This document shows, piece after piece, positions 4,482 to 58,695 of a stretch of 64,000 nt of DNA; the stretch's first letter is position 1; each line of letters opens with the position of its first letter. Source of the stretch: Virgibacillus natechei (lineage in GTDB: Bacteria > Bacillota > Bacilli > Bacillales > Amphibacillaceae); the NCBI RefSeq assembly GCF_026013645.1, contig NZ_CP110224.1, forward strand, positions 930,001 through 994,000, read 5' to 3'. Made by a program: the position numbers and the translations under genes. Under the pieces are notes generated by a model. That model ran no database searches. It worked only from the letters and a program-made list of their open reading frames with translations, and was not told the DNA's origin.

Positions 4482-4507
4482 GAAGCCAACAAATAAATAC
4501 GGTTATA

Positions 4508-4575
4508 CCTCATATATTTACTGAGAATAGGGCTCAGGAGTTTCTACCCGGCACCGTAAATGCTGGACTATGAGG
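4508..4575 (+). ncRNA. Purine (guanine-class) riboswitch aptamer
   Basis: The conserved three-way junction is visible: P1 strands CCTCAT and ATGAGG, P2 arms CTGAG and CTCAG, the core GTTTCTACC, and P3 arms CCGGC and GCTGG around CCGTAAAT. The specificity base is C in GGACTATG, which in characterised members selects guanine or hypoxanthine rather than adenine. The strand 4569-4584, which includes the 3' arm of P1, can alternatively pair with 4631-4646 over 16 positions with two G-U pairs. This forms an antiterminator. Guanine binding would therefore favour termination. Confidence 0.95.
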
Positions 4576-4623
4576 GAGGATGAATTGTTGTGATATAGCA
4601 ATGATAGTTTTAATGGTTGAATA

Positions 4624-4709: not shown

Positions 4710-5201
4710 GTGGCACAAGTTGGTGTAATAATGGGAAGTATTTCAGATTGGGAAACAATGCAGTATACATGCAATGCACTTGATGAATTGCAAATTCCGT
4801 ATGAAAAAGATGTTATTTCAGCACATCGTACGCCTGATGAAATGTTCGCTTATGCGAAATCTGCTCGGGATCGTGGGCTAAAGGTAATCATCGCCGGTGC
4901 TGGAGGGGCTGCGCATTTACCTGGAATGGTAGCATCTCAAACAACCTTGCCGGTAATAGGTGTGCCCGTTCAAAGTAAAGCATTAGATGGAATGGATTCC
5001 CTTTTATCCATCGTCCAAATGCCAGGTGGTATACCAACAGCAACGGTAGCCATCGGCAAAGCTGGTGCAACCAATGCAGGAATTCTCGCAGCACAAATGA
5101 TCGGTGCTTTTGACGAAGCTGTAGCAGCGAAACTAGTAACCTATCGTGAAAACATGCAGGTAAAAGTTAAAGAAATGAGGGATGATCTTGCAGAAAAATA
5201 A
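4710..5201 (+). CDS. purE: N5-carboxyaminoimidazole ribonucleotide mutase
   Basis: A 163-residue class I PurE. It converts N5-CAIR to CAIR in purine synthesis, working with PurK. Visible hallmarks are the phosphate-binding [11 protein letters not shown] near the N-terminus, SAHRTPD with the catalytic His, and [11 protein letters not shown] followed by [12 protein letters not shown] is the start, with AGAAAGAGGGA upstream. It is the first gene of the operon and overlaps purK by a few codons, suggesting translational coupling. The length is normal. Confidence 0.97.
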
Positions 5202-6321
5202 ACATACGATTCTTCCATCCCAAACAATTGGGATTATTGGTGGTGGCCAACTTGGACGCATGATGGCAATTGCTGCTAAATACATGGGGTATACGGTTGC
5301 AGTTCTAGACCCAACGCCGAACTGTCCAACTGCTCAAGTGGCAGATAAACAGATTACGGCTGCCTATGATGACATGGAAGCAATCAAAGAATTAACAGAG
5401 ATTAGCGAGATCATTACATATGAATTTGAGAATGTGGACCTAACAGCAGCGGCTTATATAGAAGAAAAAGGGAAATTACCACAGGGTGCGTATGCGCTGG
5501 AAATCACCCAAAATCGTGAAAAGGAAAAGCAAGTAATGCAGGACTTACAATTACCGATCCCTGCATTTACCATTGTCACAAATGCCAAGGAATGTGAGGA
5601 GACCTTAGCGTCTATTACCTATCCAGCTGTCATTAAGACATGTCGTGGTGGTTATGATGGAAAAGGCCAACTGAAATTAGAATCACAGTCAGATCATCAA
5701 CAAGCCATTGATTTTGCCGAAAGAAATGATCGTTGCATTATCGAAGAATGGGTATCCTTTGATAAAGAAATTTCGGTTGTTTTCACCCGTTCCCAAACGG
5801 GAGAGATCACATTTTTCCCGATTGCAGAAAATGATCATAAGGACCATATTCTTCATCAAACGGTGGTTCCAGCGCTTATTAGTGAAGGTGTTCAGGAAAA
5901 CGTATACGATGCTACTGCAAAATTAGCTGCGAAGATGGATGTTGTTGGAACGTTTGCAATTGAATTGTTTGTTAAAGGCGAGGAAATTTTCTTGAATGAA
6001 ATGGCGCCCCGTCCACATAATTCCGGTCATTATACGATTGAAGCATGTAATATTTCACAATTTACACAACATATTCGTGCGATTTGTGGACTCCCGTTAA
6101 CGCCTATCAAATTATTGCAGCCCGCTACAATGGTCAATATTTTGGGTGAGGATCTGGATGGTGTACAAAAAGCAATGGCAAAAAACGGGGATGGATTTGT
6201 TCATTTATATGGAAAAGAGGAAGCCAAAGAGAAGCGGAAAATGGGACATATTACGTTTATCGCAGAAACAAAAGAAGAACTAACCCAGCAAATAACTAGA
6301 TTCGAGGAGGGGAAACAATGA
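5188..6321 (+). CDS. purK: N5-carboxyaminoimidazole ribonucleotide synthase
   Basis: An ATP-grasp enzyme of about 377 residues that makes N5-CAIR from AIR, bicarbonate and ATP. It starts with the [12 protein letters not shown] nucleotide-fold motif. [11 protein letters not shown] forms the ATP-grasp loop and [15 protein letters not shown] holds metal and substrate ligands. TTG at 5188 is preferred because GAGGG at 5177-5181 is properly spaced from it, whereas the in-frame ATG at 5182 would sit directly on that site. It overlaps purE upstream and purB downstream by four bases. Confidence 0.95.
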
Positions 6322-7610
6322 TTGAACGGTATAGTCGAGAGGAAATGGCGTCCATATGGACAGAAGAAAACAAATTCAAAGCATGGCTAGAGGTTGAAAT
6401 TCTTGCTTGTGAGGCGTGGAGTGAGCTTGGAATAATCCCAGCTGAAGACGTGAAAGAACTTCGTGACAAGGCTTCTTTTGACCTTAATCGAATTTATGAA
6501 ATCGAAGAAGAAACGAGGCATGACGTTGTGGCGTTTACACGTGCAGTGTCTGAAACATTGGGCGAGGAACGAAAATGGGTGCATTATGGGTTAACTTCCA
6601 CAGATGTGGTCGATACGGCCCTCTCTTATCAATTGAAACAAGCAAACGAAATTATTCGTAAAGACCTCACAAGTTTCATTGAAATTTTAAAAAACAAAGC
6701 AATGGAACATCAGCATACTGTTATGATGGGGCGTACACACGGCGTACATGCTGAACCGACAACATTCGGATTAAAGCTTGCATTATGGTATGAAGAAATG
6801 AAACGGAATTTGGATCGATTTGAAGCAGCTGCGAAAAATGTAGAATTTGGCAAGCTTTCTGGAGCGGTGGGTACCTATGCCAACATCGACCCATTTGTTG
6901 AACAATATGTTTGTGAAAAGCTTGGAACAACACCAGCACCAGTATCTACGCAGACACTACAGCGTGACCGTCACGCCGCATATGTGTCAGCTCTGGCATT
7001 AATCGCAACATCCGTTGAAAAATTTGCAACAGAAATTCGCAACCTGCAAAAAACAGAAACCCGTGAAGTAGAGGAACAATTCGCGAAAGGGCAAAAAGGT
7101 TCATCAGCCATGCCGCATAAACGCAATCCGATCGGCTCAGAGAATATGACCGGAATGGCGCGTGTAATCCGTGGATACATGATGACAGCTTATGAAAATG
7201 TTTCTCTATGGCATGAACGTGATATCTCGCATTCATCAGCTGAGCGGATTATTTTACCAGATGCGACGATTGCGTTGAACTACATGTTGAACCGGTTTAG
7301 CAGGATTGTCGATAATCTTACTGTTTTCCCGGAAAATATGAAACGGAATATGGACAGAACACATGGCGTGATTTTCTCACAACGTGTATTACTTACATTA
7401 ATTGATAACGGAATGGCTCGAGAAGATGCATACGATATTGTTCAGCCAAAAGCGATGGAAGCATGGGAGACAGCAACGCATTTCAAACAGCTGGTGGAAG
7501 CAGATGAACAAATTACGGCAAAACTCACGCAAGAAGCGATTGATGAATGCTTCGACTATACGTATCATTTAAAAAATGTGGACGAAATCTTTAACCGAAT
7601 CGGACTATAA
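6318..7610 (+). CDS. purB: Adenylosuccinate lyase
   Basis: A 430-residue member of the fumarase/aspartase superfamily. It releases fumarate from SAICAR and from adenylosuccinate. The signature loop [11 protein letters not shown] around residues 262-272 is intact, as are TSTDVVDTA and [15 protein letters not shown], which carry the catalytic His and substrate contacts. The start overlaps the purK stop (ATGA), and the GAGGAGGGG site lies inside purK. The length equals that of the Bacillus enzyme. A structured 155-base spacer follows before purC. Confidence 0.97.
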
Positions 7611-7768: not shown

Positions 7769-7783
7769 CGCGAGGTGAATAAT

Positions 7784-8497
7784 ATGAAGGAAGCCCTTTT
7801 GTACGAAGGCAAGGCGAAACAGGTTTACGAGGCGAAAAATAAACCCGGACAACTGGTTTTATCCTATAAAAATGATGCTACCGCTTTTAATGGTGAGAAA
7901 AAGGAAGTATTTTCTGGAAAAGGAAGACTGAATAACGAAATAGCTGCACGTATTTTTCCGTTTCTTCATGAGAAAGGGATTGATACCCACTTCATTGAGC
8001 GGTTGAATGAAACAGAGCAGCTGGTTCATCAAACAGAGATTATACCAATTGAAGTGGTTGTTCGTAATCTTGCAACTGGAAGTATTACAAAGCGATTAGG
8101 AATTGAAGAAAAAACATCCTTCAATCCTCCCTTAATCGAGTTGTTTTACAAGGATGATGCCCTTGATGACCCGCTAATCAATGATGAACATGCACTATTT
8201 CTAAGTAATGTTACGCCATCGGAACTGGGTGAGATTAAAGCACAAGCGATGGAGATCAATAAAAGCCTAAGCGCACTATTTGAAACGATAGCTATTACCT
8301 TGGTCGATTTCAAGCTGGAATTTGGACGTAAGGCAAACGGATGCCTTGTCCTCGCTGATGAGATTTCCCCAGATACATGCAGATTGTGGGATGTCAACAC
8401 ACAGGAAAAATTGGATAAGGATGTTTTCCGTCAAGGGACAGGCGACTTAATCGAGGTATATGAGGAAATTCTGCAACGATTACAAGACGTAAAATAA
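7784..8497 (+). CDS. purC: SAICAR synthetase
   Basis: Phosphoribosylaminoimidazole-succinocarboxamide synthase of 237 residues, which condenses CAIR with aspartate using ATP. It shows LLYEGKAKQVYEAK at the N-terminus, LSYKNDATAFNGEKK, VVVRNLATGS with the substrate loop, and DFKLEFGR and LADEISPDTCRLWD near the C-terminus. The ATG is spaced 9 bases from GAGG. The GTG nine bases earlier would sit on that site. In B. subtilis the next genes are purS and purQ; here purL follows after 30 bases. Confidence 0.96.
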   Translation: MKEALLYEGKAKQVYEAKNKPGQLVLSYKNDATAFNGEKKEVFSGKGRLNNEIAARIFPFLHEKGIDTHFIERLNETEQLVHQTEIIPIEVVVRNLATGSITKRLGIEEKTSFNPPLIELFYKDDALDDPLINDEHALFLSNVTPSELGEIKAQAMEINKSLSALFETIAITLVDFKLEFGRKANGCLVLADEISPDTCRLWDVNTQEKLDKDVFRQGTGDLIEVYEEILQRLQDVK

Positions 8498-8527
8498 TCA
8501 ATCAAAATCGAGGGGGAACCAGGTTTG

Positions 8528-10750
8528 ATGAAGAATAATAATGTGCAGCCAGAACAGATCGAGCGTGAAAAGTTATACGAGGACATGGGGCTGAGTGATC
8601 AAGAATATAGCAAGGTAAAAGATGTGTTAAAACGTCTTCCTAATTATACGGAAACAGGTATATTTTCAGTAATGTGGTCAGAGCATTGTAGTTATAAAAC
8701 GTCGAAACCGCTATTAAAAAAGTTCCCCACAACAGCACCACATGTGTTACAAGGGCCTGGAGAGGGCGCAGGTGTCATTGATATCGGTGATAACCAAGCG
8801 GTTGTATTTAAACTTGAGAGTCATAATAGTCCGTCGGCAGTGGAACCGTTTGAAGGTGCTGCAACCGGTGTTGGCGGGATTCTCCGCGATGTGTTTTCAA
8901 TGGGAGCGAAGCCAATAGCTGCACTGAATTCCTTACGATTTGGTAATTTAACAACAGATCGTACGCGGATGCTACTGTCAGAGGTTGTTCGAGGAATAGC
9001 TAGCTATGGGAACGTTATTGGGGTACCTACAGTTGGCGGGGAAGTTCAATTTGATGATAGCTATGAAGAAAATCCGCTCGTAAATGCGATGATAGTCGGA
9101 CTCGTCGATCATGATAATGTCCAAAAAGGAATAGCGGCAGGCGTTGGTAATACGGTGATTTATGCTGGAGGATCAACGGGAAGAGACGGGATCCATGGAG
9201 CAACATTTTCATCCGATGTGATTGATGAAGAAGCGGAAAATACGTCAGCAGTGGCAATTGGTGATCCAGAGGTTGGAAAGAAATTAATTGATGCCTGTTT
9301 AGAAGTCACGTATTCCGATGCTTTAGTAGGCATACAGGATATGGGGGCAGCAGGCTTAACATCTTCTGCGAGCGAAATGGCAAGTAAAGCTGGAACGGGT
9401 ATTGAAATGAACCTTAATTTGATTCCACAGCGTGAGAAAGATATGAATGCTTATGAATTAATGCTTTCCGAATCACAGGAGCGGATGCTTCTGGTCGTGA
9501 AAAAGGGTCAGGAGCAAGAGATACTAGATATTTTTGCTAAACATGAAGTGAACGCAACAGCGGTTGGGGAAGTAATTGAAGAAAAAACATTCCGTATTAA
9601 ACAGCATGACGAAGTAGTAGCTGACATTCCGGTTGATGCATTAACAGAGGATGCTCCTGTCTATCATATGCCATCAGAAGAAGCTGTCTATTATAAAGCA
9701 TTTCAGCAAGAGGAAAATCGTATTCCAGAGGTGCAGGATCATGGATCGACGTTAAGAGATTTGCTTCAACAGCCAACGATTGCAAGCAAGGAATGGGTAT
9801 ACGAACAATATGATTCGGACGCTCAGTCTAACACCATTACAGGGCCAGGGTCAGATGCTGCGGTCGTGCAGATTGACGGAATGGATAAAGCGATTGCCAT
9901 CACAACAGATTGTAATTCCCGTTATATCTATTTAGATCCTGAAATGGGTGGGAGGATTGCAGTTGCTGAAGCTGCTCGAAATATCGTATGTTCCGGCGCG
10001 AAACCGTTAGCGTTAACAGATGGCTTGAACTATGGCAATCCCACAAATCCGCAAATCTTTTGGCAAATGGAGAAGAGTATTGATGGGATCAGTGAGGCAT
10101 CGCGTCTCTTGGAAACACCGGTTATTAGCGGAAATGTTTCCATGTATAACCAGTCACACGGGGAATCGATTTTTCCGACTCCGATTATTGGGATGGTCGG
10201 TTTGCACCAATCACTCGATCACGTAACACCGAATCATTTTCAAGCAGCGGACGATATTATCTATCTAATTGGTGATACGTATGTCGAGTTTGGTGGTAGT
10301 GAATTACAAAATGTTTTAGAAAAAACGTATTCCGGAAAAGCACCGGCTATTGATTTACAGGTTGAAACAAAACGCCAAGACCAATTATTAGCTGCAATTC
10401 GTCAGGGGACGGTTCAATCTGCGCATGACGTAGCAGAGGGTGGACTAGCTGTCGCACTAGCTGAAAGTGTTTTTAATGGAAAAGGGTTCGGTGTAAAAAT
10501 AGACCTGACCGGGGACGCGACTACGGCATTATTCAGTGAGTCCCAATCGCGGTTTGTCGTAAGTGTTAAGGCTGAAAATAAAGAGCGTTTTGAAGCAATG
10601 ATGGATGATGCTAAACAAATTGGTGTCGTTACAGAAGATAGTACATTTAATGTAAACATCAACAACAATAACGTAATTCAGGAAGATGTTGATACACTTA
10701 ACAAATTGTGGAAAGAAGCTATTCCACAAATGTTGAAATCAAAAGTCTAA
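8528..10750 (+). CDS. purL: Phosphoribosylformylglycinamidine synthase, synthetase subunit
   Basis: The small (740-residue) Bacillus-type PurL. It normally works with PurQ (glutaminase) and PurS to turn FGAR into FGAM. Both tandem AIRS-like halves are present: [19 protein letters not shown], then [17 protein letters not shown] and [17 protein letters not shown]. The C-terminus [10 protein letters not shown] matches the usual end. The highly conserved ESHNHPSA motif reads ESHNSPSA, so the second His is Ser. No purS or purQ lies upstream. ATG is preceded by GAGGGGG; a TTG one codon earlier is possible. The TAA stop lies in the same frame as the downstream purF coding frame. Confidence 0.95.
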
Positions 10751-10768
10751 CTAAAAGAGGAATGCGCT

Positions 10769-12139
10769 ATGTTTGGAATTTGGGGTCATGAAAAAGCAGC
10801 TGAAATTACGTATTATGGGTTACACGCATTGCAGCACCGTGGTCAAGAGGGCGCTGGTATCGTTGTTAGTGATGGAGAAACCTTAAAACTTCACCGGGAT
10901 TTAGGCTTAGTAAATGATGTGTTTAAGCGGACAAGTTTTTCCGAATTAGCAGGGCATGCGGCAATCGGTCATGTTCGTTATACGACACAGGAAGACAGAG
11001 GAATAGACAGTGTTCAACCATTACTATTTCGCTCGCAAACGAACAGCATGGCCTTGGCGGAAGTGGGTAATATCATGAATTCCCACAAGCTTCGTGGAGA
11101 ACTGGAAGATGAGGGGAGTATTTTACAAACCCAATCCGATACGGAGCTGCTTGCACACTTGATGAAACGAAATGGAAAAGATGTAACCCAGGAATCAATT
11201 ATTGAAGCACTACAGCAATTTACCGGTGCCTATGCTTACTTAATTCTGCAAGAAGATAAAATGCATGTGGCACTTGACCCCCGTGGTATTCGTCCTTTAT
11301 CGATCGGCAAGCTAGGTAATGCTTATATCGTTGCATCGGAGACATGTGCCATTGACCTTGTAGGGGGGACATTCGAGCGTGAGGTTCTGCCTGGTGAACT
11401 AATTACGATTAGTGATAAGGCAATAGAATCTACACGATTTACACTTAGAGAACAGCGTAAAGTATGTGCGATGGAATATGTTTATTTATCCAGACCAGAT
11501 AGTGATCTGAACCATGTAAATGTGCACGCATCCCGTAAAAAAATGGGGAAGGAATTGGCGAAGGAAGCTCCGATTGAAGCAGATGTGGTAACAGGTGTGC
11601 CAGATTCCAGTATTTCTGCGGCAATTGGCTATGCGGAACAAAGCGGCTTACCTTATGAAATGGGGATCATTAAAAATCGGTATGTTGGCAGGACGTTCAT
11701 CCAACCTTCTCAAACTTTAAGGGAACAAGGTGTAAAACTGAAATTAGCCCCAGTCCGCGGAATCGTGGAAGGAAAACGGATCGTGATGATTGATGATTCG
11801 ATTGTTCGCGGGACGACCAGTAAACGAATTGTCCGAATGCTGAAAGAAGCTGGTGCCAAAGAGGTGCATGTACGGATTGCCTCTCCTGCGATAGAAAACC
11901 CGTGCTTCTACGGTATTGATATGTCAACGAAAAAAGAATTAATTGCAGCGAACCATTCCATTAAGGAAATAGGTGACATAATTGAAGCTGACAGTGTGGC
12001 ATTTTTATCTGCGGAAGGGTTAGAGCAAGCGATTATTAAAGATAAAACGATCCATCAAGGGATTTGTAATGCATGCATGACAGGGGATTACCCAGTCGTA
12101 GATAATGAGCAAACAAACCGCTCCTATATGAAAAGTTAA
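10769..12139 (+). CDS. purF: Amidophosphoribosyltransferase lacking glutaminase catalytic residues
   Basis: PurF makes phosphoribosylamine from PRPP and the amide N of glutamine. The C-terminal half is intact: the PRPP loop VIMIDDSIVRGTTS-type sequence, GVPDSSISAAIGYAEQSG, KNRYVGRTFIQPSQ, and cysteines in KVCAMEY, NPCFYG and GICNACM for the iron-sulfur cluster. The N-terminal glutaminase is not. Family members are made with a leader ending in EEC, the Cys becoming the nucleophile. Here KEEC is encoded in frame upstream of ATG 10769 but follows a TAA and has no start. AAGAGG at 10755-10760 is ideally spaced for ATG 10769, giving a 456-residue protein without the Cys. The oxyanion motif HNGN is EVGN (GAAGTGGGTAAT). 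It probably works, if at all, with ammonia. Confidence 0.93.
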   Translation: MFGIWGHEKAAEITYYGLHALQHRGQEGAGIVVSDGETLKLHRDLGLVNDVFKRTSFSELAGHAAIGHVRYTTQEDRGIDSVQPLLFRSQTNSMALAEVGNIMNSHKLRGELEDEGSILQTQSDTELLAHLMKRNGKDVTQESIIEALQQFTGAYAYLILQEDKMHVALDPRGIRPLSIGKLGNAYIVASETCAIDLVGGTFEREVLPGELITISDKAIESTRFTLREQRKVCAMEYVYLSRPDSDLNHVNVHASRKKMGKELAKEAPIEADVVTGVPDSSISAAIGYAEQSGLPYEMGIIKNRYVGRTFIQPSQTLREQGVKLKLAPVRGIVEGKRIVMIDDSIVRGTTSKRIVRMLKEAGAKEVHVRIASPAIENPCFYGIDMSTKKELIAANHSIKEIGDIIEADSVAFLSAEGLEQAIIKDKTIHQGICNACMTGDYPVVDNEQTNRSYMKS

Positions 12140-12165: not shown

Positions 12166-13185
12166 ATGTCAGACGTGTATAAAGAAGCTGGAGTAGACGT
12201 AGGTAAGGGCTACGAAGCGGTCGAACGAATGAAGAAACATATTGCGAAAACGACTCGGCCTGAGGTATTGGGTGGAATTGGAGCTTTTGCGGGATTATTC
12301 GAATTAACGTCCTTTACCTACAAAGAACCGGTATTGGTTTCTGGAACAGATGGCGTCGGAACAAAACTGAAGCTCGCTTTTCAATTAGATAAGCATGATT
12401 CTGTTGGGATGGATCTAGTCGCAATGTGTGTCAATGATATTGTGGCACAAGGGGCTAGACCCCTGTTTTTCCTTGATTATATCGCTTGTGGGAAGAATGA
12501 ACCGAAGATGATTGAACAGATTGTTGCTGGAATAGCGGATGGTTGTACGGATGCAGGTGCTGCTCTAATTGGTGGCGAAACAGCTGAGATGCCAGGAATG
12601 TACGGAGAAAATGAGTATGACCTTGCTGGATTTACTGTCGGCATTGCAGAAAAATCACAGCTTGTTACAGGTAATTCCATTCAAGCAGGGGATGTCGTTA
12701 TCGGATTGCCATCTAGTGGGATTCATTCGAATGGCTATTCGCTTGTGCGAAAAGTCGTGGACGGCATGGATTTATCACGTAGTTACGATGGATTGTCCCA
12801 GCCACTTGGAGAAGCACTATTAACACCAACGAAAATCTATGCAAAAGCCGTAACAGCAGTATTGGATAAGTTTTCTGTTAAAGGGATTTCTCACATAACA
12901 GGCGGTGGGTTTTATGAAAATTTTCCGAGGATGCTACCTGAAGGCCTAGGTGTTGAACTTGCCCCTGCTAACTGGGAAGTACCTGAAATATTTTCCTTTA
13001 TCCAGAAGACAGGCAATGTTTCAGACAAAGATATGTATGGTGTTTTTAATATGGGCATCGGCATGGCACTAGTTGTTGAGGAAAAGCATGCAGCTAGTAT
13101 TGTCTCTATACTGCAGGAAAACGGGGAGCAAGCATCGATTATAGGAAATGTAATTGCAAGCGAAGGCGTACATTTTACATCATGA
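12166..13185 (+). CDS. purM: Phosphoribosylformylglycinamidine cyclo-ligase
   Basis: AIR synthetase of 339 residues, which closes the imidazole ring of FGAM using ATP. Visible family motifs are [11 protein letters not shown] near residue 38, [13 protein letters not shown] with ATP contacts, [30 protein letters not shown] and [34 protein letters not shown] lies in the C-terminal half. The stop overlaps the purN start (ATGA). Nothing unusual in the gene; the length is normal. Confidence 0.97.
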
Positions 13186-13751
13186 GTAGAGTAAAGGCGG
13201 CTGTATTTGCTTCAGGTACAGGAAGTAATTTCGAGGCAATAATCGAAGCAGACGATCTAGCTTGCGATATCGCATTACTTGTTTGTAATAAACCAGGTGC
13301 AGTTGTTATTGATAAAGCTGTGAAACACGGAATTCCCACCTTAATTCTTGATCCAAAAGCGTATGCATCGAAAGAGGATTATGAACAAAAAATTGTTGAA
13401 AAACTGCATGAGTCAGGAATAACATGGGTCTTTCTAGCAGGTTATATGCGAATTGTTGGCAAAACATTATTGCATGCTTTTGACAGGAAGATTATTAATA
13501 TTCATCCTTCTTTATTACCGAATTTTCCTGGTAAAGATGCAATTGAACAAGCGTATCAGGCTGGCGCTGAACAGACAGGTGTAACGGTGCATTTTATTGA
13601 TGAAGGAATTGATACAGGACCGATTCTTGCGCAGGAATCACTTACTATTTATCCAGATGATACTAAGGAGACCCTACAAACAAGAGTCCAGGCAATCGAG
13701 CACAGGTTATACCCACAAGTTATTAATCAGCTAGTTCTTAAAAACTTATGA
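13182..13751 (+). CDS. purN: GAR transformylase, folate dependent
   Basis: Phosphoribosylglycinamide formyltransferase of 189 residues, using 10-formyltetrahydrofolate. It begins with the phosphate loop [12 protein letters not shown]. Catalytic residues are visible in [13 protein letters not shown] (Asn and His) and in [12 protein letters not shown] (Asp). The start overlaps the purM stop by four bases, a typical coupled pair. The length and motifs are normal. Confidence 0.97.
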
Positions 13752-13784
13752 ATGACCTTATAAGAGGTAAGTGGAGGGATATTT

Positions 13785-15320
13785 ATGAATAAACGCGCGC
13801 TAATTAGTGTGTCCAATAAAGATAGCATAACCGATTTTGCGAAAGGACTAGTGGAACTGGGCTATGAGATCATTTCTACTGGTGGAACATTACGTGTCAT
13901 GCAAGAAGAAGGGATCGAAGCAAAGGCAATCGATAAAATAACTGGATTCCCTGAGATTATGGATGGACGGGTTAAAACACTCCACCCAACTGTTCATGGT
14001 GGCTTGCTTGGAAAACGTTCAAGTCGTATACATAGAAAACAGATGGAACAAAATAAAATTCAACCGATTGATATGGTTGTGGTTAACCTATATCCGTTTA
14101 AAGAGACGCTTCAAAAAGAAGGTGTTACGGATGATGAAATTATTGAAAATATCGACATTGGCGGGCCAGCTATGCTTCGCTCAGCAGCAAAGAACTTTCA
14201 GGACGTTACCGTGGTTGTAGACCCAGATGATTATGAACAGGTGTTGGAGGATCTTCGCGAAGAAAAGCAAACAGCTGAAATACGCAAAGGATTGGCTGCG
14301 AAAGTATTCCGTCATACAGCAAATTACGATACCACGATCGCAAGTTATTTCACAAAAGAAATGGAGCAAGAATTTCCGGAAACCTATACCGTTACCTATG
14401 AAAAATCGCAGGACTTACGTTACGGGGAAAATCCGCATCAGCAGGCTGCATTTTATAGAGATCCTTTACATACTGACATGAGTCTAGCAACGGCAAAACA
14501 GCTACATGGGAAAGAGCTCTCCTATAATAATATTCAAGACGTGAATGCAGCTCTTGAGAGTTTGGTAGAATACCGAGATCCAGCAACTGTTGCCGTGAAG
14601 CACATGAATCCGTGCGGAATTGGTGTTTCAGACGATCTATTCCAAGCTTTTCAAAAAGCGTATGATGCAGATCCGGTATCAATATTCGGTGGTATTGTTG
14701 CTTGTAATAGAGAAATAGATCTACAAACAGCTAAAACACTAAGTGAAATTTTCCTAGAAATTGTGATTGCGCCTCGTTTCACGGAAGAAGCTTTAGAAAT
14801 TTTAACACAAAAGAAAAATATTCGTTTGTTGGAAATGAAAATGAATGAAGCTAGTGCCACGTCGTATCATAAATTGACAACGGTGAAAGGCGGCGTGCTC
14901 GTTCAACATAATGATGCTGGTAAAATCACGGAAGAGCAGTTAACAGTTGCAACCAAACGCCAACCAACGGAACAAGAATTAGTTGATTTGCAATTTGCTT
15001 GGAAGGCAGTGAAACATGTGAAGTCCAATGCGATTGTTTTAGGAAAAGATAATCAAACCGTCGGGATAGGTGCTGGACAAATGAATCGAATTGGATCAGC
15101 GACTATCGCTATTGAACAAGCAGGTGAGAAAGCTAAGGGGTCCGCATTAGCGTCCGATGCATTCTTCCCAATGCCAGACACGGTGGAAGCTGCGGTGAGA
15201 GCAGGGGTAACGGCAATTATTCAACCAGGTGGCTCCAAGCGTGATCAGGATTCAATCGATATATGTGATAAGCACGGAATAACGATGGTTTACACAGGAA
15301 TGCGCCATTTCAAACACTAA
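13785..15320 (+). CDS. purH: Bifunctional AICAR transformylase / IMP cyclohydrolase
   Basis: A 511-residue two-domain enzyme catalysing the last two steps to IMP. The N-terminal IMP cyclohydrolase domain (about 1-195) shows ISVSNKDSI, STGGTLRVM, GFPEIMDGRVKTLHP and IDIGGPAMLRSAAKN. The C-terminal transformylase (about 200-511) has RYGENPHQQAAFY, VKHMNPCGIG with the catalytic Lys-His region, SDAFFPMPD and IIQPGGSKRDQDSI. AGGTAAGTGGAGGG precedes the ATG. The length is as in B. subtilis. Confidence 0.97.
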   Translation: MNKRALISVSNKDSITDFAKGLVELGYEIISTGGTLRVMQEEGIEAKAIDKITGFPEIMDGRVKTLHPTVHGGLLGKRSSRIHRKQMEQNKIQPIDMVVVNLYPFKETLQKEGVTDDEIIENIDIGGPAMLRSAAKNFQDVTVVVDPDDYEQVLEDLREEKQTAEIRKGLAAKVFRHTANYDTTIASYFTKEMEQEFPETYTVTYEKSQDLRYGENPHQQAAFYRDPLHTDMSLATAKQLHGKELSYNNIQDVNAALESLVEYRDPATVAVKHMNPCGIGVSDDLFQAFQKAYDADPVSIFGGIVACNREIDLQTAKTLSEIFLEIVIAPRFTEEALEILTQKKNIRLLEMKMNEASATSYHKLTTVKGGVLVQHNDAGKITEEQLTVATKRQPTEQELVDLQFAWKAVKHVKSNAIVLGKDNQTVGIGAGQMNRIGSATIAIEQAGEKAKGSALASDAFFPMPDTVEAAVRAGVTAIIQPGGSKRDQDSIDICDKHGITMVYTGMRHFKH

Positions 15321-15337
15321 TCGAGGGGAGCTTTTCT

Positions 15338-16585
15338 ATGAATATATTAGTAATCGGTCGAGGTGGACGTGAACATAGTATTGTCATGAAGTTAGCCGAA
15401 AGTGAAAAGGTTACAACCATATACGCGGCTCCCGGTAATGGTGGGATACAGCAACAGGCTACCTGCATTGCTATTGATGAGATGGATATGGATGGGCTTG
15501 TGGATTTTGCAAGAAAGAAAGCTATTGATTTAACGATAGTTGGTCCAGAAAGTCCGTTGAACGAAGGCATTACCGATCGGTTTCAAGAGGCTGGATTGGC
15601 GGTTTTTGCACCAACTAGTGAAGCGGCGCTGTTGGAAGGCAGTAAAAGTTTTGCGAAAGAATTTATGAAAAAACATGAGATACCAACTGCATCTTATGCA
15701 ACGTTTACGAATGCGGAAGAAGCAAAACAGTATATAGAGGAAAAAGGCGCGCCGATCGTTATCAAGGCGGATGGTTTGGCTGCTGGTAAGGGTGTGATTG
15801 TTGCTGAGACAAAAGAACTTGCGCTACAGGCAGTTGATGAAATGCTCGTCTCAAAAAACTTTGCTGAAGCAGGAGCTACAATTGTGATTGAGGAATTTTT
15901 AGCAGGGAAAGAATTCTCCTTGATGGCATTTGTTCATGAAAATAATGTCTATCCAATGGTAACAGCTAGAGATCATAAGCGCGCCTATGACAATGATGAA
16001 GGTCCCAACACTGGCGGTATGGGGGCCTATGCTCCAGTGGAAGATGTTACGAACGAACACCTGGCTTTTGCTACTGAGGAAATTCTACAAAAGACAGCTG
16101 ATTCGTTAATGAAGGAAGGACGTCCGTTTACAGGAATTTTATATGCCGGTCTTATTATGACGGCGGATGGTCCTAAAGTAATCGAGTTCAATACCCGCTT
16201 TGGTGATCCAGAAACCCAGGTTGTATTGCCATTACTGAAAAATGATCTCGTACAAGTACTGGTAGATGTAATGGATGGAAACAATCCTGAATTAGAATGG
16301 GAAGACAGCTCCTGTACAGGGGTGGTTGTGGCTTCAGATGGGTACCCGGGCTCTTACCATAAAGGTATTCTTCTTCCTAAAATGAAAGCAGCAGGAAGCT
16401 CTTTCACGATCCATGGAGGAACGAAGCTTGAAGGTGATACACTCGTATCTGATGGCGGGCGTGTCCTGTTGGTTGGAGCAAAGGATACGACATTAGAAGA
16501 AGCGACAGATAATGTGTATGGTGCTTTAGCGTCTGCAGGGGATATGGACGGATTTATTTATCGGAGGGATATAGGGAAGGTGTAG
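15338..16585 (+). CDS. purD: Phosphoribosylamine-glycine ligase
   Basis: GAR synthetase of 415 residues, an ATP-grasp ligase joining phosphoribosylamine and glycine. It starts NILVIGRGGREHSI. It shows VGPESPLNEGI, the ATP-grasp loop KADGLAAGKGV, and ARDHKRAYDNDEGPNTGGMG followed by EFNTRFGDPETQ with metal ligands. It is the last gene of the operon, separated by 17 bases from purH and preceded by GAGGGG. No terminator follows immediately; a hairpin with a T-rich flank appears about 200 bases downstream. Confidence 0.97.
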   Translation: MNILVIGRGGREHSIVMKLAESEKVTTIYAAPGNGGIQQQATCIAIDEMDMDGLVDFARKKAIDLTIVGPESPLNEGITDRFQEAGLAVFAPTSEAALLEGSKSFAKEFMKKHEIPTASYATFTNAEEAKQYIEEKGAPIVIKADGLAAGKGVIVAETKELALQAVDEMLVSKNFAEAGATIVIEEFLAGKEFSLMAFVHENNVYPMVTARDHKRAYDNDEGPNTGGMGAYAPVEDVTNEHLAFATEEILQKTADSLMKEGRPFTGILYAGLIMTADGPKVIEFNTRFGDPETQVVLPLLKNDLVQVLVDVMDGNNPELEWEDSSCTGVVVASDGYPGSYHKGILLPKMKAAGSSFTIHGGTKLEGDTLVSDGGRVLLVGAKDTTLEEATDNVYGALASAGDMDGFIYRRDIGKV

Positions 16586-58524: not shown

Positions 58525-58544
58525 AATGAAAACTTAAATAGTAA

Positions 58545-58690
58545 TATTCCTTCGGGGTGGGTGAAATTCCCAATCGGCGGTGATGAAGTAGTATTCTTAG
58601 TCCGCGACCCGTGCGGTTTTAATAAAACCAAGCGGTTGATCTGGTGCAGTGCCAGAACCGACAGTTATAGTCTGGATGGGAGAAGGAATT
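58545..58690 (+). ncRNA. FMN riboswitch (RFN element)
   Basis: The conserved pieces are in order: ATTCCTTCGGGGTGGGTGAA, ATTCCCAATCGGCGGT, AGTCCGCGACCCG, GATCTGGTGCAGTGCCAGAA, CCGACAGTTATAGTCTGGAT and GGGAGAAGGAAT. The closing P1 is ATTCCTTC with GAAGGAAT. A variable stem (GCGGTTTT and AAAACCAAGC) lies in the middle. It precedes ribD and should terminate transcription when FMN is bound. Confidence 0.97.
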
Positions 58691-58695
58691 TTTGA

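Follow-up and report, generated by a model that had tools for sequence, protein, structure and literature searches.

Loss of both purine glutaminases in Virgibacillus natechei and its relatives points to ammonia-dependent purine synthesis

The purine (pur) operon of the halophile Virgibacillus natechei lies in the stretch of DNA analyzed here (the window: 64,000 bases, positions 930001-994000 of a complete one-contig genome of 3,867,590 bases, G000). Its purF gene begins past the codon for the nucleophile of the glutaminase half, and genome-wide profile searches found neither PurQ nor PurS. Judging from these and related gene states, it is highly likely that both glutamine-using steps of purine synthesis have turned to ammonia, and that this has happened repeatedly within one bacterial family. 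A PurF that starts past its old nucleophile could not hydrolyze glutamine; it would form phosphoribosylamine from phosphoribosyl pyrophosphate and free NH3, and PurL, without PurQ and PurS, would aminate formylglycinamide ribonucleotide with free NH3 as well. The change would have arisen more than once; the lineages concerned have exchanged purL or purL-purF cassettes horizontally, and most of them have also lost glutamate synthase, some the CarA nucleophile. The setting is probably ample internal ammonia, drawn from amino acids as food or from ammonium-rich surroundings, and under such a life the channelling of glutamine would be dispensable. In vitro, NH3 can serve as a substrate for PurF and for small PurL, and cells can grow on ammonium with a PurF that has no glutamine domain.

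The original prediction, made from the window sequence alone, concerned PurF: its glutaminase residues were said to be lost and its synthase half conserved. The window sequence and the relatives support this. The prediction covered only part of the change: purS and purQ are also gone, PurL is of a special type, and a second CarA lacks its nucleophile.

The purF start and its lost glutamine site

The following features, all on the plus strand, define the altered gene.

10726-10749: remnant of the purF leader, read in a different frame, within the end of purL; it translates as TNVEIKSL
10757-10760: GAGG, likely ribosome-binding site, 8 bases before the purF ATG
10763-10765: TGC, which formerly encoded the N-terminal nucleophile Cys and is now upstream of the purF start
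10769-12139: purF without nucleophile (TIGR01134, 501 bits, cut-off 350)
11060-11071: EVGN in place of HNGN (oxyanion Asn to Val)

The sequence CTAACTAA occupies 10747-10754. Its TAA (10748-10750) falls in the purF frame and is the stop codon of purL, whose open reading frame (ORF) runs from 8525 to 10750. Reading the bases between this stop and the Cys codon, we found no ATG, GTG or TTG. The in-frame TAA and the lack of a start ahead of the Cys had both been predicted correctly, as had the ACA at the old ATG position of the leader, which opens the relic, and the use of a start after the Cys. That start is ATG 10769, and its GAGG derives from the old Glu-Glu codons. Two predictions needed amendment. 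The tandem CTAA is present, but its origin by duplication is not demonstrable, since a single CTAA was not seen in any close relative; the EVGN motif is real, but lies one base upstream of its predicted place (11060-11071, not 11061-11072).

Two marks of the PurF family are missing from the window protein: the N-terminal nucleophile Cys after a start or leader, and the oxyanion Asn-Gly of HNGN. The others are there. The protein passes the curated score over its full length (profile positions 3-432 of 432 in TIGR01134), chain 1ao0 (which, like 1gph, we take to be Bacillus subtilis PurF) aligns with residues 1-446, and the synthase half is conserved in the alignments, as predicted, with Cys 233, 379, 433 and 436, presumably iron-sulfur (Fe-S) cysteines. 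We took residues 1-225 (10769-11443) as the glutaminase half and residues 226-456 (11444-12136) as the synthase half. A structure prediction from ten sequences gave a poor model (mean predicted local distance difference test score, 56.7) and was not used.

A second intact purF, named at the outset as one finding that would speak against the loss, was sought in the genome, and no second purF was found. The comparison with sister strains and independent assemblies also came out as expected. Within the genus, the comparison drew on G001, which is Virgibacillus saliphilus (listed also as sp. NKC19-3), and on G002, which is Virgibacillus sp. NKC19-16; G001 has the same CTAACTAA, stop and EVGN, and database proteins with an identical start and EVGN are named for V. 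natechei and Virgibacillus sp. NKC19-3.

PurF, PurQ and PurS among relatives

The window genome has four weak matches to the PurQ model, and the three listed lie at HisH and two DJ-1/PfpI genes. With a small PurL above cut-off and PurQ and PurS not found, the three-part formylglycinamidine ribonucleotide (FGAM) synthase is only partly present. The gene order is purE-purK-purB-purC-purL-purF-purM-purN-purH-purD, downstream of a purine riboswitch, so that the operon retains its purine control element. Its remaining features, on the plus strand except the gap, are as follows.

4490-4590: purine riboswitch ahead of purE (RF00167, 75.5 bits against a gathering score of 37)
4710-5201: purE, ORF (TIGR01162, 220 bits, above cut-off)
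5182-6321: purK, ORF (TIGR01161, 402 bits, above cut-off)
6318-7610: purB, ORF (TIGR00928, 599 bits, above cut-off)
7775-8497: purC, ORF (TIGR00081, 232 bits, above cut-off)
8498-8524, no strand: purC-purL gap of 27 bases, the site of purS and purQ in PurQ/S-positive relatives
8525-10750: purL of the PurQ/S-less type (TIGR01736, 939 bits; NF002290, 983 bits; signature residues; tree)
8828-8830, 9254-9256 and 9281-9283: purL signature codons Ser101, Ala243 and Lys252 (residue 1 at 8528)
12166-16585: purM, purN, purH and purD, the remaining pathway, as open frames above family cut-offs

Elsewhere in the window are a flavin mononucleotide (FMN) riboswitch (58544-58691) and pieces of a group II intron (RF02004, RF00029; 41418-42218).

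PurQ and PurS are absent from the same genomes. In a first set of 61 genomes each scored above cut-off in 50, and the same 11 genomes, that of the window included, had neither. Among 159 genomes of the family, PurQ was present in 125 and PurS in 125, the two lists being identical when matched by eye; PurQ was missing from 34 genomes and PurS from 34 (20 named in the match lists and 14 established by exclusion). Three of these 34 also had no PurF match (G122, G142 and G175, with completeness of 92%, 99% and 75%, respectively). As a separate observation, a divergent PurC outside the operon (L318-L328, L330), 30-33% identical to window PurC and below the PurC cut-off, is the sole PurC match in 29 of the 34 PurQ/S-less genomes, some of them counted by exclusion. 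At twelve such loci none of 18 reference proteins lay beside this PurC, except weak PurL-like matches at L321 and L328 that are probably SelD.

The state of PurF follows that of PurQ and PurS closely. We read 61 purF loci from 58 genomes, with nearly all PurQ/S-less ones included (G103 was left out); together with the first set, 103 loci of 99 genomes were read. Of 30 PurQ/S-less loci, one (G033) had a normal ATG leader start (at -13) with the Cys; among the main loci read in positive genomes, 27 of 28 had it (Fisher test on 29/30 versus 1/28 loci without a normal start, p = 4e-14, kinship not corrected). At 22 of the 29 abnormal PurQ/S-less loci no in-frame ATG, GTG or TTG precedes the Cys position. 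Elsewhere a candidate codon exists: a TTG at -19 that belongs to the former ribosome-binding site (G014, G127, G130), or a GTG at -5 (G070) or ATG at -3 (G151), neither with a Cys downstream. G108 and G134, where a TTG at -12 possibly opens a short unrelated leader with Cys and the oxyanion Asn is gone, are the least certain cases of PurF loss.

G110 is the sole PurQ/S-positive main locus, of the 28, without a normal leader start. Since G033 has lost PurQ and PurS with PurF intact, and G110 has a dead PurF with PurQ and PurS present, the losses had no fixed order. Three other PurQ/S-positive genomes (G069, G123, G132) combine a dead-type main operon with a separate purB-purC-purS-purQ-purL-purF block that encodes a normal PurF; this block (L167-L170, L193, L194) is perhaps a regained glutamine pathway. 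Intact relatives mostly have GAGG or GAAG at the place of the new ribosome-binding site and GTN at that of the new start, and an ATH codon stands at the start position in G113, G181 and G182. These pre-existing GAGG/GAAG and GTN sequences may be why new starts recur at the same residue.

The Cys was absent from its old place in 65 of the 120 database proteins nearest to window PurF, a count in which some database starts may be wrong. Among the best 80 named purF loci, seven were flagged as lacking the Cys or the Asn-Gly: two family members (L081, L105), three Bacteroidales loci (L127, L132, L137), L102, which retains the Cys codon and has lost the Asn, and L150, which resembles an alignment slip. 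The Bacteroidales loci (near 10001) are from metagenome-assembled genomes of rumen or gut; their PurF lacks Cys1 and reads NDGN, GEGN or GEGS, and the glutamine amidotransferase (GATase) part of their large PurL retains its GICNG motif. These losses are possibly an independent case in ammonia-rich guts. In G043, which belongs to another family of the order and has PurQ and PurS, one of two purF copies (L052, G043:C23) has no leader start ahead of its Cys codon; the other copy is 55% identical to that of the window.

We then compared PurFs with a decayed glutamine site ("dead," n = 33) and those with an intact one ("live," n = 28). Twenty-seven alignment columns near-fixed in the live proteins are loosened in the dead ones, 15 of them at residues 69-127, which we take to be the surroundings of the glutamine site. 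The oxyanion Asn is retained in 8/33 dead versus 28/28 live PurFs; Cys 233, 379, 433 and 436 are retained in all 61, hence in 33 of 33 dead ones. Across 12 dead pairs the ratio of nonsynonymous to synonymous differences (pN/pS) was 0.07-0.22 for the glutaminase half and 0.03-0.14 for the synthase half; the corresponding ranges across 12 live pairs were 0.04-0.15 and 0.03-0.28. Both halves having low values, we conclude that these purF genes are under purifying selection; the dead glutaminase half has probably been kept as part of the fold.

A distinct PurL and its exchange

On a quick tree, a single branch with good support divides the PurL proteins into 32 from PurQ/S-less loci and 28 others. 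His101 of the ESHNHPS motif is replaced by Ser in 29 of 32 PurQ/S-less proteins versus 0 of 27 readable positive rows (the positive row G181 has no letters at this site). G033, G089 and G102 retain His101 and look like intermediate states. Further changes on the PurQ/S-less side are Tyr108 to Phe (31/32), Gln243 to Ala (31/32) and Leu252 to Lys or Arg (32/32). Structure 3viu, presumably a Thermus-type PurL, has the usual residues at 101 and 243 (ESHNHPS, AVQVGDP). Position 101 is Ser in 70 and His in 50 of the 120 database proteins nearest to window PurL; when matches from a search with Schinkia azotoformans PurL are added, Ser occurs in 84 of 139. S. azotoformans (P0147-P0149, P0152), from another group of Bacillaceae than the window relatives, has a Ser-type PurL that shares 83% identity with the Oceanobacillus sp. 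143/zhaokaii protein.

The species tree tells a different history from the PurL tree. On a quick RpoB tree of 57 genomes, PurQ/S presence changes ten times, with at least six changes forced by well supported branches, versus once on the PurL tree. A single ancestral loss was therefore rejected, and the discrepancy indicates cassette exchange. Approximately unbiased tests (33 chosen of 60 PurL rows) rejected the groupings {G127, G130, G110, G126} and {G000, G001, G002}; these groupings were picked after the trees were seen, and long branches may share a pull. Pairs of sister species mark the limits of the exchange within the operon. G130 and G110, with RpoB 97.7% identical, share 90% identity in purF, 91% in purM and 94% in purH, and only 71% in purL. 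Between G125 and G111, purL (72%) and purF (74%) fall below purM (86%), purH (90%) and pcrA (92%). Between G001 and G002 the values are 73% for purL and 77% for purF, with 88% for purC, 86% for purH, 94% for pcrA, and intermediate values for purM (81%) and purD (80%). By these comparisons, species have swapped PurL of the PurQ/S-less type on cassettes of purL alone or of purL with purF.

A wider proposal, which we favor by a narrow margin, is that an ammonia-specialized PurL lineage (Ser101, Ala243, Lys/Arg252) frees purine synthesis from glutamine and travels from one species to another in an operon cassette, even beyond the family (Schinkia), with decay of PurF, CarA and glutamate synthase following. 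If true, an entire biosynthetic pathway would be switched from glutamine to ammonia by a trait that is selectable and horizontally exchanged.

Nitrogen supply, alternatives and known systems

In the window genome, motifs show that the nucleophile is kept in GlmS, PabA/TrpG, one CarA, GuaA, PyrG, HisH and PdxT. A second CarA, which we assume to be the arginine-type enzyme (L224 1501-2034; G000:C1:1254510-1255043), reads GIGLGHQ, with Gly for the nucleophile Cys. Close relatives of this protein were read in 23 of 59 genomes searched, G026 being counted at 47% identity. The Cys was lost in six (G000, G026, G127, G130, G110, G113) and kept in 17; by genome type, it was lost in 4/4 PurQ/S-less versus 2/19 positive genomes. 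Because G127, G130 and G110 are close kin, the losses are fewer as events than as genomes. For the other type of CarA, six of the seven relatives' proteins read have the Cys, including those of PurQ/S-less G134 and G108; the seventh, the sole CarA matched in G178, reads GISLGHQ.

Glutamate synthase is likewise missing from most PurQ/S-less genomes. GltB (PF00310) was matched in 2 of 31 PurQ/S-less versus 20 of 28 positive genomes (p = 3e-7), and in 0 of 6 genomes with a lost CarA Cys versus 16 of 17 with the Cys kept (p = 7e-5), kinship being uncorrected in both tests. A survey of Bacilli describes the central nitrogen enzyme set as complete within the Bacillaceae (PMC3412718).

Several points weigh against a turn to ammonia or against its proposed setting. 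G033 has no PurQ or PurS, yet its PurF has a normal start and the Asn. The dead glutaminase half evolves just mildly faster, the ratio of nonsynonymous rates (dN) being 1.06-2.89 versus 0.80-1.89 in live pairs. G021 and G125 lack PurQ and PurS and have GltB, and eight PurQ/S-positive genomes have no GltB match. In a pair test for GltB on well supported branches of the RpoB tree, of 6 pairs a mean of 2.4 agreed with the association and 0 ran against it, a sample too small for significance. Lastly, within a PurL-PurQ-PurS complex small PurL supplies the FGAM synthase, and its homologues are inefficient without PurS (PMC10912719, PMC3815217), so that loss of PurS should not be easy. That same inefficiency makes the special residues of PurL more telling.

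Four other explanations were considered. The one that survives best accepts the losses and the use of ammonia and denies that ammonium wealth is the setting: the GltB association would reflect shared ancestry, with drift under relaxed selection enough. The nonsignificant pair test fits this account. We nonetheless consider it unlikely, if by no means negligible, in view of the ten PurQ/S changes on the RpoB tree, six of them forced, and of the near-perfect split of GltB between lost and kept CarA nucleophiles.

Alternatively, a glutaminase acting in trans might supply ammonia to PurF or PurL, with glutamine still the donor. A class-I protein of Peptidase_C26 type is encoded about 1 kb upstream of the window (L227), and 20 of the 231 gene junctions in 33 ammonia-type loci exceed 150 bases (up to 610), with any small genes there unread. 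We judge this improbable: the other 211 junctions are 150 bases or shorter, and the ten class-I GATase matches were PabA/TrpG, two CarA, GuaA, PyrG, HisH, PdxT, Peptidase_C26 and two DJ-1/PfpI proteins. None of the ten lies inside the pur operon, although no search was aimed at free-standing glutaminases.

Less probable still is a dead pathway, its operon decaying in strains that import purines. Several parts have indeed been lost, and the nearly complete G142 has no match to PurF, PurC, PurQ or PurS (the last two by exclusion). Against this, the remaining ORFs of the pathway are uninterrupted and score above their cut-offs, both PurF halves have low pN/pS, all dead PurFs keep the Fe-S cysteines, the riboswitch is kept, and the special PurL residues are common to many species. 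Finally, purF starts were mistaken in 3 of 58 archaeal cases according to one study (PMC3261824), and the TTG of G108 and G134 could be a missed start, but a misplaced start or an error that hides a Cys1 still being made is scarcely credible when the window offers no ATG, GTG or TTG from stop to Cys and glutamine-site columns have decayed at 33 family loci, and an error in one assembly is ruled out because G001 and the named proteins carry the identical state.

Ammonia remains the probable donor at both steps. Textbook purine synthesis depends on glutamine and passes ammonia through guarded channels; in this one family, about thirty species appear to use free ammonia instead. Sister pairs such as G110/G130 and G001/G002 offer a natural before and after, and together with an apparently ammonia-run pathway they make it testable why channels and glutaminases persist elsewhere, how PurL can function when PurQ and PurS are missing, and in what way the supply of nitrogen shapes core metabolism. 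These PurFs are named in databases as ordinary amidophosphoribosyltransferases, a label by which metabolic models can be misled. We found no published bacterial pathway lacking both glutaminases, nor a distinct PurL of this kind or its exchange, in a literature search that covered subscription journals poorly; this suggests that a bacterial purine pathway with neither glutaminase is new, the protein kinds themselves being already known.

The nearest known cases are as follows. In Escherichia coli PurF, replacement of Cys1 abolishes the use of glutamine, and ammonia still serves (PMC3261824). The same paper gives the proposal that crenarchaeal PurF', a PurF-like protein without the N-terminal Cys that is linked to purine genes, depends on ammonia. 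In Crenarchaeota this protein accompanies, as a second copy, a PurF that has the Cys; in V. natechei the altered protein is the only PurF found, it is bacterial, and PurQ and PurS are gone. With small PurL that works with PurS and PurQ (TIGR01736; the Thermotoga maritima complex 3d54), window PurL shares a full-length family match and its operon position; it differs in the Ser for His in ESHNHPS, in many changes at 228-255 and 424-451, and in that PurS and PurQ were not found in its genome. Compared with Bacillus-type PurF (1ao0, 1gph; TIGR01134), window PurF has the near-full-length match, the Fe-S cysteines and the synthase half, and lacks the leader, Cys1 and the oxyanion Asn. Human CPS1, an ammonia-type carbamoyl phosphate synthetase, has likewise lost its nucleophile and retained the glutaminase part as a fold; it belongs to another pathway, and the parallel is one of function only.

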